The notes under the pieces were generated by a model that was given only the letters and a program-made list of their open reading frames with translations, searched no databases and was not told the DNA's origin. This document shows, piece after piece, positions 12,758 to 28,851 of a stretch of DNA of 64,000 bases. Source of the DNA: Pseudomonadota bacterium (lineage in GTDB: Bacteria; Pseudomonadota; Alphaproteobacteria; UBA828); assembly GCA_027624955.1 (NCBI GenBank), contig JAQBTG010000015.1, positions 1-64,000 on the forward strand, in the 5' to 3' direction. Position numbers and translations under genes: made by a program. Numbering within the stretch: position 1 is the first letter of the stretch; each line of letters begins with the position of its first letter.

Positions 12758-15700
12758 TCAGTTGACGGCGTTGGTATCGATGTCGCTGTTGACGCCTTCT
12801 GTCGGCGGTGAATCGCGGTAGGTTCTGAGGAACGCTTCGGCGCCCTCAATGTTGGCGAGGATTTTCGGCAGCTCGTGAACCGGAACCGCATCGGTATCAC
12901 TCGAGCGAGTGATGAGATCGAACGCGTTTTTGTAGACGCTTTCCGCCATGCCCGCACCATATTGGAGGCGCAAGCGGGCCAATTCAGACGTATTGTCCGA
13001 CAGCATCAGCGCGACGACTTGGCGCATGATAAGATGCTGCTCATGCACTGCGATATCGCCGCCGGCATGATCAAACGCCTTGCCTAACTCGGTGCTGGCT
13101 TCAGCCCATTGCTCGGACCGCCAATAGATGTCGGCGCGCAGCAGCGCCGCATCGCGGGTCTGGTCGGCTTTCAGAAGCACCAGCGCGGCATCGCCATCGC
13201 CAACAGCCGCAAGCGCCCGGGCCTCGAGATGGCGACGCTGTTGCTTCAGCGCGACGGGCATGTCGATGCCCTCACCTTGCGAAAGTTTGAGCGTATCCAG
13301 AGCGTGCGCCGGCTCCTGGTCGAGCAACTGAATGATCGCTAGATGGGCACCAATGCGTGACTTATCGACACCGGCGACGGCGTCGAGCTGACGATTCAGT
13401 AATTCTCCAGCGCGGTCGAGAAGGTCGACATCGACCAGCCGATTGGCTAGGCCCTCGGCAATCCGTCCCCCCGCCGCACCGTCTTCCGACAAATCGCCGA
13501 ATTCGTAATAGAGGCTGAGTGCTGTCAACGGTGAGAGCGTGTCGGCGCCGCCATCGATAAAGAGGTCAGAGAACATGCGCTGCATTTGCTCGTTCACTGC
13601 GGGGGCCGCTGCGGACTGTGGGAAATTCTCCACGGCGTCGCGCATGGCTTGCAGCGCATTCAGGTAATTTTTCTCTTCGCGGTAGAGCTCCGCGAGCCGG
13701 CGCAGCAGCAATTGTTCGAAGGAATCGCCGCGCCACGCGTGGCGCAGCCGTTCCAGCGCAACAATGGCGTCACTGCGCGTCATGCGACCAAGATGCAGCA
13801 TCAACTCAACCCGCGACAATTCCGCGCGCGCCCGTACCGGGGGACTGCCGTCAATCGCCAATTTGTCGAAATATTCAAGCGCGGCCTCGGTCTTGCCAGT
13901 GCGCTGATAGGCGGTGGCACGCAAGTAGCGCGCTTCCATCTTATCGTTCTTATTGGGTGCTTCAGCCTCGATGCGCTCGACCAAGCGGTTGACGCGGTGG
14001 TAATTTCCCACCGCTAATGCCGCATGGGCCGCCAACAGACCAAAGCGCGCACGTAAATCGAGCGGCAAACGCTCAAACGCCGGGCCAGAAATGGCGAACG
14101 CTGAATCTGCCCCCTGCCAATCGCCGCGCGTTGCCGTCAGCGCGGCGCGCCACAGCGTTACATCCATATCACCATCTAGTATTTCGCGGTTTAGATCGGC
14201 CGCCGCTTCCTCGGCACGGCCGAGCAGCATGAGCGTCGCGCCCCGTAGGGCGAGAAAGTCGGGGCGTTCAAGAGATTTCGGATCTTCTTCGGCGATGCGG
14301 TGAATAACGCCGATGGCATCCTCCGCGAGACCATGGGCGAAGTGAAAGTTTGCAAGGCTTAGACGGCGCTCTGTGCGCACTTCGATTCCGGCGGAAACAA
14401 CCGCATGCTGCAAGAGACGCCTGGCATCAATGTATTGACCGAGATCATCACGCCGACAGGCCTCATATTCAAACAACGGCCCCATAGCGGTTTCAAGACC
14501 GTCCGATATTTCGGCCAAGCGGCCCGTACTCGTGACGGCATCCGCGGACATATAGAGCTCGTGCGGGCTGGTCACTTCAACGCCCGTCACCTTGATATCG
14601 ATGGCGACATCATCGGCGCGGGTCTTGAAGGCCATAATACCCTGCGCGCTCGCGATGATATCGAACTGCACGAAGGCGCGGCCTGTCTTGACGCCGACGC
14701 CGGGCTCTCTCACCGGCACGACGATCAATGTGTCGCCAACCTCCGGGTCATTGATCTTGATTGCCCGACCAGCGCCGGGAGTCGGGACCAATACCCTGGC
14801 GCCGCCTTTTGCCGACGGCTCAGCGCGAATCAAAAGCGGCTTGGCAGGCGGCAACGGCGCATCGGTCATTTCCACCAGCCAAGTGTTGCCGCTGCGCGCA
14901 ACACGCGGCCACAGATCGGCGGCGATACCGAAACGCAAAACAGTCGCGCCCGGCGCACGCAGCTGATCGGCGCTGGTGATCGTTCCGGTCATGCGGTCAG
15001 CCATGCCAAGCGCACTCAGATCGACGATGCGCGGCACATCGAACACCATCCACAGATACCCCATGCGACGAAAGACGCTTGCCCCGACGCGCCGATCCCA
15101 TAGCAAACGCAATCGCATTCCGCCCGATATGGCCTCCGCAGACACAGTGAGCGGCGGCGCCGGTGGCAGCGTGGCAGAGAGGGCGCGCTCCGTCGCATCG
15201 GGATGCCGTTCATCCTCGAATTGCGTGGATGATTGGTTTTTACTTCTAGCGGTTAACGCCGCGGCACGAAGCCCGGCCAAATTCAACGCTGCTATTCCAG
15301 CCGGCAGATGGGCTTTGACATTTTCGCTGCCGCTTTCTTTGGGTCGTTCCGGCTGTAATGTGGCACTGCCCGGAACGGCGATCACGTTCGGCGGAGTCCG
15401 GGTCGGCGTGCTCGCCGTCACCCCGGCTGCGTTCTCCAAGGCATCCAGGACGATGCGCTTGCCTTTCTGAAAATGCCGCATCCGCAGTGATTCGCCTATG
15501 CCGATCTGGAGCAGCAGTTTTCCTTCCGACTGAACACTGTCGATGGAAAAGAACCGCTTCGGCAGCTCCTTTCTCAACGCCAATAGATCAATTTCTCCTG
15601 GCCCGTCAAACAAGATGCTCACCGTCTCTCCGGTGCGTTCAACATCATATTCGACCGCGTCATTCCAGGCGAAAATGAGTCGGCTGAAACTGCCATATTC

Positions 15701-16615
15701 CTTACTTTCCACGGCGATCAAGGGTGCCGGCGCGGAAAACTCTACGTTCGCGGGGGCCGGCGGGAGAGCCGAAGATTGGGGCGCGGCGGTAAAAGGGGCA
15801 GAGATGGAAGCTACCGGCGCAGCAATTGGTACAGTTGGCGGTGCGGTCGGCGATGCTATTGGCGGTGCTGCCGGCGGTGCTGCCGGCGGTGCGATCGACG
15901 GTGCTGCCGGCGGTGCTGCCGGCGGTGCGATCGACGGTGCTGCCGGCGGTGCGGTCGACGGTGCGGTCGGCGGTGCGGTCGGCGCTGCTGTCGACGGTGC
16001 GGTCGGCGCTGCGGTCGACGGCTCTGTCGACGGTGCTTCGAAGGCTGATTTGCCCGCCGTAGCGATAGTCGATTCTTGATTATCGGCCGGTGGCTCGGGC
16101 AATTTCTCCGCTGTTTTGGGAGAGCTCTGTTGTGAAGGGCTTTCGTCCCCTTGTTGCGCACCAACCAGATCGATCACCACCATGTTACCAAGGGTAAAGG
16201 AGCGCAAGGTGAATGGGCGTAGCAAATGCAGGCGGACGGTGCGGTGGTCATCGAGGATTTCAGCGCTCTCGACCCACTCATCCAAATCGTCCAGGAGCCG
16301 TTTGAAATCAGCCTGCAGCGGACTGTCAAACCGTATCTCCGCCACTGTCCCCTCGCCGCTGGCTTGGAAAGCCGGCAGCGGTTTCCAATCGAAGACTATG
16401 CGCGCGAAACCGTCATGCAATCCGCTCCGAACCGTAATTTGGACGGCGGCTTCATTGGCCTCGTCGGTTTCGGCGGAGAGCACAGCTGGAAGGCAGAGCG
16501 TGACGGCCAATCCGAGCAGGGCGGCAACGCAACGACGACGAAACCAACCCCCGCGCGCGCGGGTGCGCGTCTGGGAGTGGGGTGCGGAGCTTGCAGGGCG
16601 CAACGATAAATTCAT
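12758..16615 (-). CDS. Large periplasmic TPR protein of the fliL-fliM-motE operon
   Basis: 1285 residues, not assigned to a named family. An N-terminal arginine-rich leader and hydrophobic core (CVAALLGLAVTLCLPAVLSA) look like a signal peptide. Three similar beta-rich repeats follow, at about 58-150, 305-400 and 500-590, each with a pattern like RIVFDWKPL or RLIFAWNDA, reminiscent of AMIN-type domains. Repeats 1 and 2 are separated by an Ala/Pro-rich linker of variable-number repeats. The C-terminal half, from about 730, is helical with TPR-like units (LRATAYQRTGKTEAALEYFD is a clear one). It is the last gene of the run fliL-fliM-pflI-like-motE-like. A periplasmic TPR scaffold for the flagellar motor, analogous in idea to Campylobacter PflA/PflB or Sinorhizobium MotC, is a reasonable hypothesis only. 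Confidence 0.85.
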   Translation of the reverse strand: MNLSLRPASSAPHSQTRTRARGGWFRRRCVAALLGLAVTLCLPAVLSAETDEANEAAVQITVRSGLHDGFARIVFDWKPLPAFQASGEGTVAEIRFDSPLQADFKRLLDDLDEWVESAEILDDHRTVRLHLLRPFTLRSFTLGNMVVIDLVGAQQGDESPSQQSSPKTAEKLPEPPADNQESTIATAGKSAFEAPSTEPSTAAPTAPSTAAPTAPPTAPSTAPPAAPSIAPPAAPPAAPSIAPPAAPPAAPPIASPTAPPTVPIAAPVASISAPFTAAPQSSALPPAPANVEFSAPAPLIAVESKEYGSFSRLIFAWNDAVEYDVERTGETVSILFDGPGEIDLLALRKELPKRFFSIDSVQSEGKLLLQIGIGESLRMRHFQKGKRIVLDALENAAGVTASTPTRTPPNVIAVPGSATLQPERPKESGSENVKAHLPAGIAALNLAGLRAAALTARSKNQSSTQFEDERHPDATERALSATLPPAPPLTVSAEAISGGMRLRLLWDRRVGASVFRRMGYLWMVFDVPRIVDLSALGMADRMTGTITSADQLRAPGATVLRFGIAADLWPRVARSGNTWLVEMTDAPLPPAKPLLIRAEPSAKGGARVLVPTPGAGRAIKINDPEVGDTLIVVPVREPGVGVKTGRAFVQFDIIASAQGIMAFKTRADDVAIDIKVTGVEVTSPHELYMSADAVTSTGRLAEISDGLETAMGPLFEYEACRRDDLGQYIDARRLLQHAVVSAGIEVRTERRLSLANFHFAHGLAEDAIGVIHRIAEEDPKSLERPDFLALRGATLMLLGRAEEAAADLNREILDGDMDVTLWRAALTATRGDWQGADSAFAISGPAFERLPLDLRARFGLLAAHAALAVGNYHRVNRLVERIEAEAPNKNDKMEARYLRATAYQRTGKTEAALEYFDKLAIDGSPPVRARAELSRVELMLHLGRMTRSDAIVALERLRHAWRGDSFEQLLLRRLAELYREEKNYLNALQAMRDAVENFPQSAAAPAVNEQMQRMFSDLFIDGGADTLSPLTALSLYYEFGDLSEDGAAGGRIAEGLANRLVDVDLLDRAGELLNRQLDAVAGVDKSRIGAHLAIIQLLDQEPAHALDTLKLSQGEGIDMPVALKQQRRHLEARALAAVGDGDAALVLLKADQTRDAALLRADIYWRSEQWAEASTELGKAFDHAGGDIAVHEQHLIMRQVVALMLSDNTSELARLRLQYGAGMAESVYKNAFDLITRSSDTDAVPVHELPKILANIEGAEAFLRTYRDSPPTEGVNSDIDTNAVN
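15837..16034. repeat. Coding tandem repeat (Ala-Pro linker)
   Basis: About 200 bp of short tandem units built from ggcggtgctgcc, ggcggtgcgatcgac and ggtgcggtcgac variants in multiples of three bases. On the minus strand they encode a run of APPAAP, APSIAPP and APTAP units in the linker of the large TPR protein. Near-identical neighbouring units mean the copy number is likely to change by slippage without shifting the frame. Short-read assembly may have collapsed it. Confidence 0.9.
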
Positions 16616-20660: not shown

Positions 20661-21446
20661 ATGCGTTCATTAAGTGTCGCCGCGACCGGCATGTTGGCTC
20701 AGCAGCTAAATGTGGAAGTCATTTCCAACAATATTGCCAACATGAACACCACGGCGTTCAAGCGTCAGCGCCCAGAATTTCAGGATCTGCTGTACCAGAA
20801 CGTGCGCCAGATCGGCTCCCAGTCTTCTGACTCCGGCACCATCTTGCCAAGTGGCGTGCAATTGGGTTCCGGCGTGAAGACCGCATCCGTGTACCGGATC
20901 ACCGAGCAAGGTGATCTGGTGCAGAGCGGCAACACCCTCGACGTGGCGATTCAGGGCCGTGGCTGGTTCAAGATCGAAATGCCGAACCGCGATCAGGCGT
21001 TCACCCGAGCCGGCTCGTTTTCACGCAGCGCTCAAGGCCAGGTCGTCACGGTGGATGGCTATGTGGTGAGCCCGGGTATCAACATTCCGCCCGATTCGAC
21101 CGGCATAACAGTCAATGAATCTGGCCAGGTACAGGTGAAGATCGCTGGGCAAGTTACGCCGCAAAATGTCGGCTAGTTCGAGCTCAACGTGTTTCCCAAT
21201 GATTCGGGTCTCGAAGGCATCGGCGACAATTTGTTTCTCGAGACACCGGCGTCCGGCGCCGCCGTCGTCGGCATTGCTGGCGCTTCGGGCTTCGGCTCGC
21301 TGCTGCAGGGCTTTCTGGAGACCTCCAACGTCAACGCGGTGGCTGAAATCACTTCGCTGATTACGGCGCAACGCGCCTACGAACTTAATTCCAAGGTCAT
21401 CACCACATCGGACGAGATGATGGCCGCCGTCAATCAGATGCGTTAG
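20661..21446 (+). pseudogene. flgG: Distal rod protein FlgG, interrupted by an in-frame TAG
   Basis: Read through one stop, this frame gives 261 positions, the normal length of FlgG. It carries both family ends (SLSVAATGMLAQQLNVEVIS at the start; VNAVAEITSLITAQRAYELN and the final VNQMR). The stop is TAG at 21174-21176, inside the conserved stretch TPQNVG*FELNVF, where relatives have Gln; a single C-to-T change (CAG to TAG) explains it. No indel is needed and the downstream part has no new start that would give a functional protein. A 171-residue product would lack the C-terminal helix that packs in the rod. Alternatives are suppression or read-through, or an assembly or sequencing error. Confidence 0.9.
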
Positions 21447-26502: not shown

Positions 26503-27630
26503 ATGACCATTTCACTCGCCATCAACAACGCGATCACCGGGCTCAACGCGGCACAGGCGGGCCTGGGCACAATCGCCCAGAATGTGGCCAACGCGAATAC
26601 AGAAGGCTATTCGCGAAAGGTCACCCACCAGTCCGCGATTGTGATCGGCGGCGTCAGCAACGGCGTCAATCTCGATGCTGCAACCCGTCTGGCCAATCAA
26701 TTTCTCGGCACCCAGCTGCGCAACGAAACGTCGGAATTCAACAAAGCCGCGGCGATTGATGAATTTTACCGCTTAACCAGCAATCTGTTCGGCGCGCCGG
26801 GTAGCGATAGTTCGGTCTCGGATTTTTTCTCGGACATCATGTCCTCCTTCGAAGCGATGGCCAACAATCCAGAGAACGCCGCGCTGCGCTTCGATATCGT
26901 CTCTACGTCGACACTCTTTGCCGACAGCGCCGCGTCGGTCGCCACTGATATCCAGAATCTTCGCTTTGCCGCAGACCAGGAAATCAAGGCCGCGACCGAT
27001 AGAGTTAATGAATTTCTGAAAAAGGTCGAAAACTTGAACGGCCTGATTAGTCTGGCGGCCTCCTCCGGCCACCCTATTGGCGATCTCGAAGATCAACGTG
27101 ACTTGGCCATCCAAGGCGTGGCGAAAGAGATTGATATTACAGCCGTCCAGCGCTCGGACGGCAAGATCACCATCAGTACCCGCTCCGGCACGTTGTTGTT
27201 AAGTGACCGGCGTCGCGAGATGACCTACTCGCCAGCATCCATCGCCACATCAACCACAACGTTCGGCGAAATTAGCGTGTTCTCGCTCGACCCAAATGGC
27301 GGCACTGTCGGCACGGGCGATCAAATCGCCTCGTCAGGGACGAGTACAAACGTCACCACGACTTTGCGCGCAGGGCGGATCGCGGGCTTGCTACAAACCC
27401 GCGATCGCGAACTCGCCGATCTGTCCTTGACCTTGGATGAATTCGTCCGCGTCGCGCGTGATGAAATCAACGCAGTCCACAATCAGGGCGCAAGCTTTCC
27501 CGGACCGACCAGCCTGACCGGAACCCTTCCGACGGCGCCGGCGGATGTCTTTCAGGGCAGTGGGACGGTGCGCATTGCCGTCACCGATTCGTCGGGAACG
27601 ATGGTCGATGCGCTCGACATTGATTTAGGG
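26503..27630 (+). pseudogene. flgK: Hook-junction protein FlgK, 3'-truncated by an IS3 element
   Basis: About 376 native residues. The N-terminal rod/hook block (SLAINNAITGLNAAQAGLGT, IAQNVANANTEGYSRK) and the D1/D2 region (VSDFFSDIMSSFEAMANNPE, GDLEDQRDLAIQGVAKEIDI) are typical FlgK. The native frame stops at the IS left end at 27631 and then runs 10 codons into IS sequence to a stop at 27663. The C-terminal helices needed for filament junction assembly are missing, and no 3' part of flgK appears on the other side of the IS. flgL, which usually follows, is also absent here. The gene is therefore destroyed by insertion plus deletion, not by simple insertion. Confidence 0.92.
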
Positions 27631-27645
27631 TGTAAAGCCCCCTCT

Positions 27646-28443
27646 CTATGTACCATTTTCTGATAGAGTTTCGGGCACCGGTGGACGCATGTTCAGAGCC
27701 TGATGCGGACGGATGTGATTGTACTGTTTCAGCCAGGTTTGGATGACGATTTGAGCCTGTTTGATTGAAGTAAACCACTCAGCATTCAAAACCTCCCTGC
27801 GCAGGGTGCCGTTGAAGCGCTCGTTGTAACCGTTCTCCCACGGGCTCCCCGGATAGATACGGATGGGTTTGATCCCAACCTTGGTAAGCCAGGTCTGGAA
27901 GTTCTCTGCAATGAACTCAGGACCATTGTCTGATCTGATGAACTCTGGTCTGCCGTGTTTCAAGAAGAGCGGATAGAGGGCTTCCAGAACCTCCGCATTG
28001 CCCATTCGAGTCCTCACGGCCACGCACAGGGCTTCGCGGGTGTACTCATCCAGTACGGTCAACATCTTGTAGGGCCGGCCGCTGGCCAGCTTGTCATGGA
28101 CGAAGTCTATGCTCCAGATATGGTTCCGGTACTTGGGGCGTAGCCGGATGACAGAACTGTCCTTGTGATAGAGGCGCTTCCGCTTCCTGTGACGCTGCGG
28201 TATCTGGAGACCCTCTTCCCGCCACAGCCGTTCGACCTTCTTGTGATTGACTTGCCAGCCTTCAATGCGAAGCAACTCGGCAATCTTCCTGTAGCCATAG
28301 CGGCCATACTGCTTTGCCAATCTGATCAAAGCCAGCCGAAGGCTGTCATCATTTCCAGGGGATGCCTCATAGCGCTGTGTGGACCGTGCCACGCCGATCG
28401 TTTTGCAAGCCCGCCGCTCGGATGATCCGAGTTTCTGACGCAC
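27646..28443 (-). CDS. IS3-family transposase OrfB (DDE integrase)
   Basis: 265 residues from the first ATG, though in life it is probably made as an OrfA-OrfB fusion by ribosomal frameshift; the frame is open further upstream, overlapping the end of orfA. The N-terminal HTH_21-type region (QYGRYGYRKIAELLRIEGWQ) and the catalytic DDE residues are visible: Asp in WSIDFVHD, Asp in IRSDNGPEF and Glu in PWENGYNERFNGTLRRE. It looks complete, so the element may still be active. Confidence 0.95.
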   Translation of the reverse strand: MRQKLGSSERRACKTIGVARSTQRYEASPGNDDSLRLALIRLAKQYGRYGYRKIAELLRIEGWQVNHKKVERLWREEGLQIPQRHRKRKRLYHKDSSVIRLRPKYRNHIWSIDFVHDKLASGRPYKMLTVLDEYTREALCVAVRTRMGNAEVLEALYPLFLKHGRPEFIRSDNGPEFIAENFQTWLTKVGIKPIRIYPGSPWENGYNERFNGTLRREVLNAEWFTSIKQAQIVIQTWLKQYNHIRPHQALNMRPPVPETLSENGT

Positions 28444-28475
28444 ATGGATTAGGGCCTGACGCAGATCGGCAATCG

Positions 28476-28763
28476 TCAGACCTTCGGCTTTAGGTAATCG
28501 AGGCTCTCCCTCAGGATCAGCTTGTCCAGTTCAAGGTCCGCGACAATTCTCTTGAGGCGGGAGTTCTCCTTCTCAAGGCCCTTGAGCTCCTGAAGCTGGG
28601 ACTTGCCCATCCCACCGTACCTTTTGCGCCAATTATAGTATGTCGCGTCGCTGATGCCTGCCGATCGGCAAGCCATCTCGACACTGCTGCCAGACGCCAG
28701 ACCGAGCTCAATCTGACGCAGCAGGTTCAATACATCCTCATCGGAATATCGTTTCCTTGCCAT
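28476..28763 (-). CDS. IS3-family transposase OrfA (HTH)
   Basis: 95 residues. The N-terminal helix-turn-helix (MARKRYSDEDVLNLLRQIEL, then SVEMACRSAGISDATYYNWR) and a C-terminal leucine zipper (LQELKGLEKENSRLKRIV) are standard for OrfA, IS407-like group. It starts 66 bp from the right inverted repeat and precedes orfB in a different frame. Confidence 0.95.
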   Translation of the reverse strand: MARKRYSDEDVLNLLRQIELGLASGSSVEMACRSAGISDATYYNWRKRYGGMGKSQLQELKGLEKENSRLKRIVADLELDKLILRESLDYLKPKV

Positions 28764-28851
28764 CCAAATACCTCCTCATCTTCGTAAAATATCACGAATT
28801 ACGTGGCACAGTTATAGGGGGGCAGGACACGTTTCGCGCGCGGACAATCGC

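Follow-up and report, generated by a model that had tools for sequence, protein, structure and literature searches.

A large TPR gene in an alphaproteobacterial fliL-fliM-pflI-motE operon very probably encodes a MotK/FssB-type, PflA-like scaffold protein of the flagellar motor

The 1285-residue protein encoded downstream of motE in the window (the whole stretch of 64,000 nucleotides analysed here) is very probably the alphaproteobacterial MotK/FssB protein, a spoke, akin to PflA, in the periplasmic scaffold of the motor. The family, its architecture, its gene neighbourhood and its co-occurrence with flagella were observed directly, and the protein matches the MotK/FssB/PflA type in nearly every feature checked, the Pfam AMIN model being the exception. 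We are confident of the family and its role; function in the window organism itself is doubtful. A first-pass annotation of the same DNA had known of no matching alphaproteobacterial part, but MotK (PMC10954123) and FssB/CC_2058 (PMC7885107, PMC13023049) have both been described.

The gene is an intact open reading frame with an ATG start and a TGA stop (Table 1). The gene order, reading fliL, fliM, pflI, motE and then the motK-type gene, was borne out by Pfam, and the earlier placement of an intact 1285-residue gene in this operon agreed with both the reading frame and the domain matches, its location on the minus strand having gone unstated. The motE product also matched the NCBIfam model collar_FlbB at 5.6e-10, under the cut-off of that model. 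The end of motE and the start of motK are separated by 100 bp, and fliO-fliP run convergently toward motK from the opposite side. A chance reading frame was ruled out because homologues are widespread, aligning with the window protein in many alphaproteobacteria at about 25-55% identity across most of its length, and because substitutions are concentrated in third codon positions: between the window gene and that of a same-genus genome (G003) they amounted to 0.43-0.48 at third positions and 0.09-0.18 at the others.

Table 1. Features of the motK-type gene, its product and the neighbouring flagellar genes in the window
Feature	Position	Strand	Basis or remark
motK-type gene (fssB/pflA-like), 1285 aa	12758..16615	-	intact ORF; homologues in 106/193 class genomes
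Likely Sec signal peptide, residues 1-48	16472..16615	-	RRR, then hydrophobic stretch; sequence judged by eye
AMIN-type module 1, residues 54-155	16151..16456	-	8 strands + helix in model, pLDDT >90; hhalign to module 2 E 9e-26
Ala/Pro-rich linker, residues 156-290	15746..16150	-	pLDDT < about 55
Tandem array encoding first Ala/Pro linker	15837-16037		12/36-bp repeats
AMIN-type module 2, residues 292-395	15431..15742	-	hhalign to modules 1 and 3; beta model
AMIN-type module 3, residues 483-592	14840..15169	-	hhalign to module 2 E 1.9e-12; beta fold in model
Fourth, distinct beta domain, residues 593-700	14516..14839	-	DPExGD motif; conservation and model
TPR superhelix, residues 717-1236, ~16 helical hairpins	12908..14467	-	Pfam TPR_2; AF2 model pLDDT 84
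motE (E-ring protein, FlgY/FlbB homologue), 215 aa	16716..17363	-	MgtE_N PF03448 5.5e-6
pflI (DUF6468), 188 aa	17389..17955	-	PF20072 3.5e-21
fliM, 377 aa	17952..19085	-	PF02154 3.6e-64
fliL, 173 aa	19085..19606	-	PF03748 8.1e-21
flgG	20661-21446	+	in-frame TAG, codon 172 (21174-21176)
flgK	26503-28829 (with the IS3-family element)		stops at about codon 376
IS3-family element	~27631-28829 (ends by eye)	- (transposase genes)	rve 1.9e-19, HTH_Tnp_1 1.3e-18

Profile comparison shows the three β modules to be mutually homologous (hhalign E 9e-26, 2e-12 and 3e-9), and each has about eight strands in the AlphaFold model, in which the linkers between them are disordered. TPR repeats were detected by Pfam TPR_2 above its cut-off, and the TPR region is wholly helical in the model. 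The three AMIN-like β repeats, Ala-Pro linker and TPR array read from the sequence at first pass were confirmed, the repeats by hhalign and the model, the linker by the tandem array and the TPR array by TPR_2 and the model. The Pfam AMIN model had no match to the window protein at E 0.1, and the modules are AMIN-type by their predicted fold. The fourth domain, which precedes the TPR array, is among the best conserved β parts of the protein.

A structural comparison with PflA had been proposed earlier, and in a fold search of the C-terminal model against 350,542 PDB chains the top match was a PflA-length chain of the C. jejuni motor scaffold (9hmf_K, E 5.9e-10), with a low TM-score of 0.21 for which the bent superhelix may account. 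We infer that chain K is PflA because the PDB entry contains PflA and the 773 residues of the chain equal the length of PflA 16-788. TPR folds match one another generically. For the N-terminal model, PilQ was the sole PDB match below 1e-3, and weaker matches to AmiC and 9hmf_K stood lower down among small heat-shock proteins. By sequence, the PilQ AMIN region was the best PDB match of module 2, at a non-significant E of 0.16; the module-1 profile gave only noise against the PDB, and phmmer against the same database returned only designed TPR and low-complexity matches. Identity with PflB was rejected, since PflB has a mid-array β-strand pair and a membrane anchor, whereas residues 717-1236 of the window protein are all helical and its only hydrophobic stretch is N-terminal.

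The distribution of the family was followed through alphaproteobacterial genomes, with the 806-aa C-terminal part of the protein as the query for the first genome search. A scan of the genome contigs with a single protein gave no match, and a six-row profile against the genome contigs gave 431 loci. Both MotK and FliM were present in 22 of the 60 genomes in the first sample, and three drafts with MotK only (G003, G007 and G021) carry other flagellar genes, mostly adjoining motK. When a profile made from the 703 C-terminal residues was run on 193 alphaproteobacterial genomes of 95% completeness or more, MotK was matched in 106 genomes, and FliM was present in 111; both were found in 104 and neither in 80, and the nine discordant genomes comprised two with MotK only and seven with FliM only (Fisher p=4e-43, a value that ignores the shared ancestry of the genomes). 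In five of the seven genomes with FliM only, FliM scored weakly (E 2e-16 to 7e-28), which suggests other flagellar types. Where motK and fliM shared a contig, 79 of the 81 pairs lay within 12 kb. A broad spread of homologues through non-flagellate bacteria had been named at first pass as evidence against a motor role; MotK instead tracked FliM across the 193 genomes. That the gene encodes an envelope TPR protein of general function, without motor specificity, is therefore very improbable: TPR and AMIN-type domains are indeed widespread in envelope proteins, and many of the PDB sequence matches were generic TPR proteins, but its close association with flagellar genes, in both occurrence and linkage, and a profile without match in nearly all FliM-less genomes, largely refute this reading.

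The order of the operon recurs in other members of the class. The same order was found among 46 long homologous loci for fliM (44/46), motE (44/46) and pflI (42/46), and the usual order in 80 titled loci is flgG-flgF (divergent), fliL, fliM, pflI, motE, cheZ, mbA, mbB, motK and fliP-fliO (convergent). Three AMIN-type modules are present in 59 of the 72 homologues whose 5' end is complete, and the size and domain order that had seemed peculiar at first pass are the norm for the class. In the one genome above the Caulobacter FlgE cut-off (G081) the homologue has 959 aa and two modules (profile E 1.5e-185), its gene adjoining fliP-fliO, and two further genomes have AMIN-less versions in the motK slot (profile E 6e-77 and 2e-38). 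Based on these three-module, two-module and AMIN-less homologues, the TPR core is conserved and the number of AMIN modules that accompany it ranges from zero to three.

The MotK of Cereibacter sphaeroides and CC_2058 of Caulobacter crescentus were compared with the window protein through their published descriptions, and the study that named MotK reported no BLAST similarity between the Cereibacter and Caulobacter versions (PMC10954123). C. sphaeroides MotK has a signal peptide, as the window protein is likely to have, and resembles it in an AMIN-type fold at the N-terminus, disordered stretches rich in proline and a TPR-like remainder, and in the location of its gene within a fliL-pflI-motE operon; it is periplasmic, binds MotE and MotB2, is found at the flagellated pole and is required for rotation (PMC10954123). 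It differs in having 652 aa and one AMIN module, as against 1285 aa, three modules and a fourth β domain in the window protein, and motA lies between motE and motK in C. sphaeroides, where the window has no gene. FssB/CC_2058 is secreted and, like the window protein, is a TPR protein with an AMIN-type N-terminus, encoded downstream of a motE-like gene (CC_2059 in Caulobacter; PMC7885107, PMC13023049), and in Caulobacter the deletion of fssB leaves cells flagellated but with paralysed flagella (PMC7885107). One AMIN module has been described for FssB, whereas the 959-aa homologue in our Caulobacter-type genome has two. Campylobacter jejuni PflA likewise consists of an N-terminal AMIN-like β-sandwich, an unstructured linker and a superhelix of 16 TPRs, and contacts the E-ring protein FlgY (PMC12222027, PMC11870540); it works together with PflB, and unlike the window protein, to which no sequence similarity was found, it has one β module. 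Sinorhizobium meliloti MotC is alike by description, being a periplasmic TPR protein with MotE as its partner, but has no AMIN domain and is encoded downstream of motB (PMC10954123, PMC13023049). Both a review and a preprint identify MotE with the E-ring protein and regard MotK, MotC and CC_2058 as its PflA-like partners (PMC13023049, PMC11870540).

Published work on these relatives documents a periplasmic location, binding of both MotE and MotB, and mutants that keep their flagella but are paralysed, and by analogy the same would be expected of the window protein. A MotK-type protein would be exported to the periplasm by its putative signal peptide, where its TPR superhelix would bind the MotE ring (E-ring) encircling the MS-ring and extend outward as a spoke. 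Carried on flexible Ala/Pro linkers, the AMIN modules may contact peptidoglycan or peripheral partners, and MotA/MotB stator units would thereby be kept in place around the rotor and activated there. A periplasmic stator scaffold had already been suggested by the first-pass annotation, and the co-occurrence with FliM and the fold match support it; that annotation was also right in its architecture, in linking the gene to MotE and in comparing the protein with PflA, PflB and MotC.

The same annotation had judged the gene very likely part of motility, which holds for the family and is doubtful for the organism, the decay of flagellar genes in the window genome having been missed. At codon 172 of flgG, where G003 and G006 have Gln, the window has an in-frame TAG, and the frame read past it is 92% identical to that of G003. 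Recoding of TAG as glutamine seems unlikely, as TAG also ends several ordinary genes here (flgF, flhA). The flgK frame stops where the IS3-family element starts, and the window has no flgK end and no flgL ahead of flhA; in G006 the open flgK is longer, and the frame after it resembles flgL. A six-frame search of the window genome (G000, 98% complete) found no Flagellin_N domain. With flgG, flgK and flagellin broken or absent, swimming is unlikely in the window organism, and the most economical reading of its flagellar gene set would be a recent loss of motility. Because genes for the rod, the hook-filament junction and the filament are broken or missing, the MotK structure probably no longer drives swimming here.

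The chances are slightly better than even that the window gene, while of the MotK family, is a remnant from a flagellum since lost, without present function in this lineage, a reading that is compatible with the family assignment and competes only with that of a gene working today. It accords with the damage to flgG, flgK, flgL and flagellin, with the lack of FliM in the same-genus genomes G001, G002, G004 and G005, and with the in-frame joining of fliL to the 3' end of motK in G003, but motK, motE, pflI, fliM, fliL, fliP, flhA, fliI, motA and motB are all still open in the window genome (motA and motB intact on another contig). The third-position bias since the divergence from G003 also speaks for a working gene, though it mostly reflects time before any decay, and single-base errors are possible in a draft genome such as this. 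Alternatively, a basal body without a filament may have been kept for a non-motility role, for example export or envelope anchoring. We consider this improbable: the loss of filament genes, with export genes (flhA, fliI, fliP, fliO) and those of the motor left intact, is what would be expected, but the flgG stop would block the distal rod, and the loss of FliM from most close relatives suggests simple decay. At the G003 junction (L036:3611-4534), fliL is fused to the part of motK from about residue 1000, and fliM, pflI, motE and most of motK are missing, through either a deletion or a draft assembly error.

Elsewhere in the class, the MotK-type gene has further company. In most alphaproteobacterial operons the stretch from motE (or cheZ) to motK contains two small MotB-like genes, with mbA preceding motK in 45 and mbB in 55 of the 80 loci (examples are L023:6932-8325, L026:7864-9179, L029:8062-9485, L030:6485-7722 and most of L045-L121). 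The mbB product has a conserved membrane Asp (49/50), OmpA-like motifs and matches to MotB models; that of mbA is without the membrane Asp and matches MotB models weakly. The window locus has no cheZ, mbA or mbB between motE and motK, and the window genome has an ordinary MotB only. No description of the pair was found in literature searches, which is weak evidence of novelty. Because mbB keeps the membrane aspartate and its partner mbA is without it, a hetero-MotB module is suggested, and one rather speculative possibility is that most alphaproteobacteria build the MotE-MotK scaffold with this dedicated pair as an anchoring or regulatory module besides MotAB, which the window lineage would have shed.

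Based on these data, the large TPR gene of alphaproteobacterial flagellar operons is settled as encoding a scaffold protein of the MotK/FssB/PflA type. This kind of protein, the MotE partner, was already described, and the sequence-level family is a modest gain: the profile unites the long three-module, Caulobacter-type and AMIN-less forms as one sequence family. The MotB-like pair provides a concrete lead on how the MotK scaffold meets the stators.
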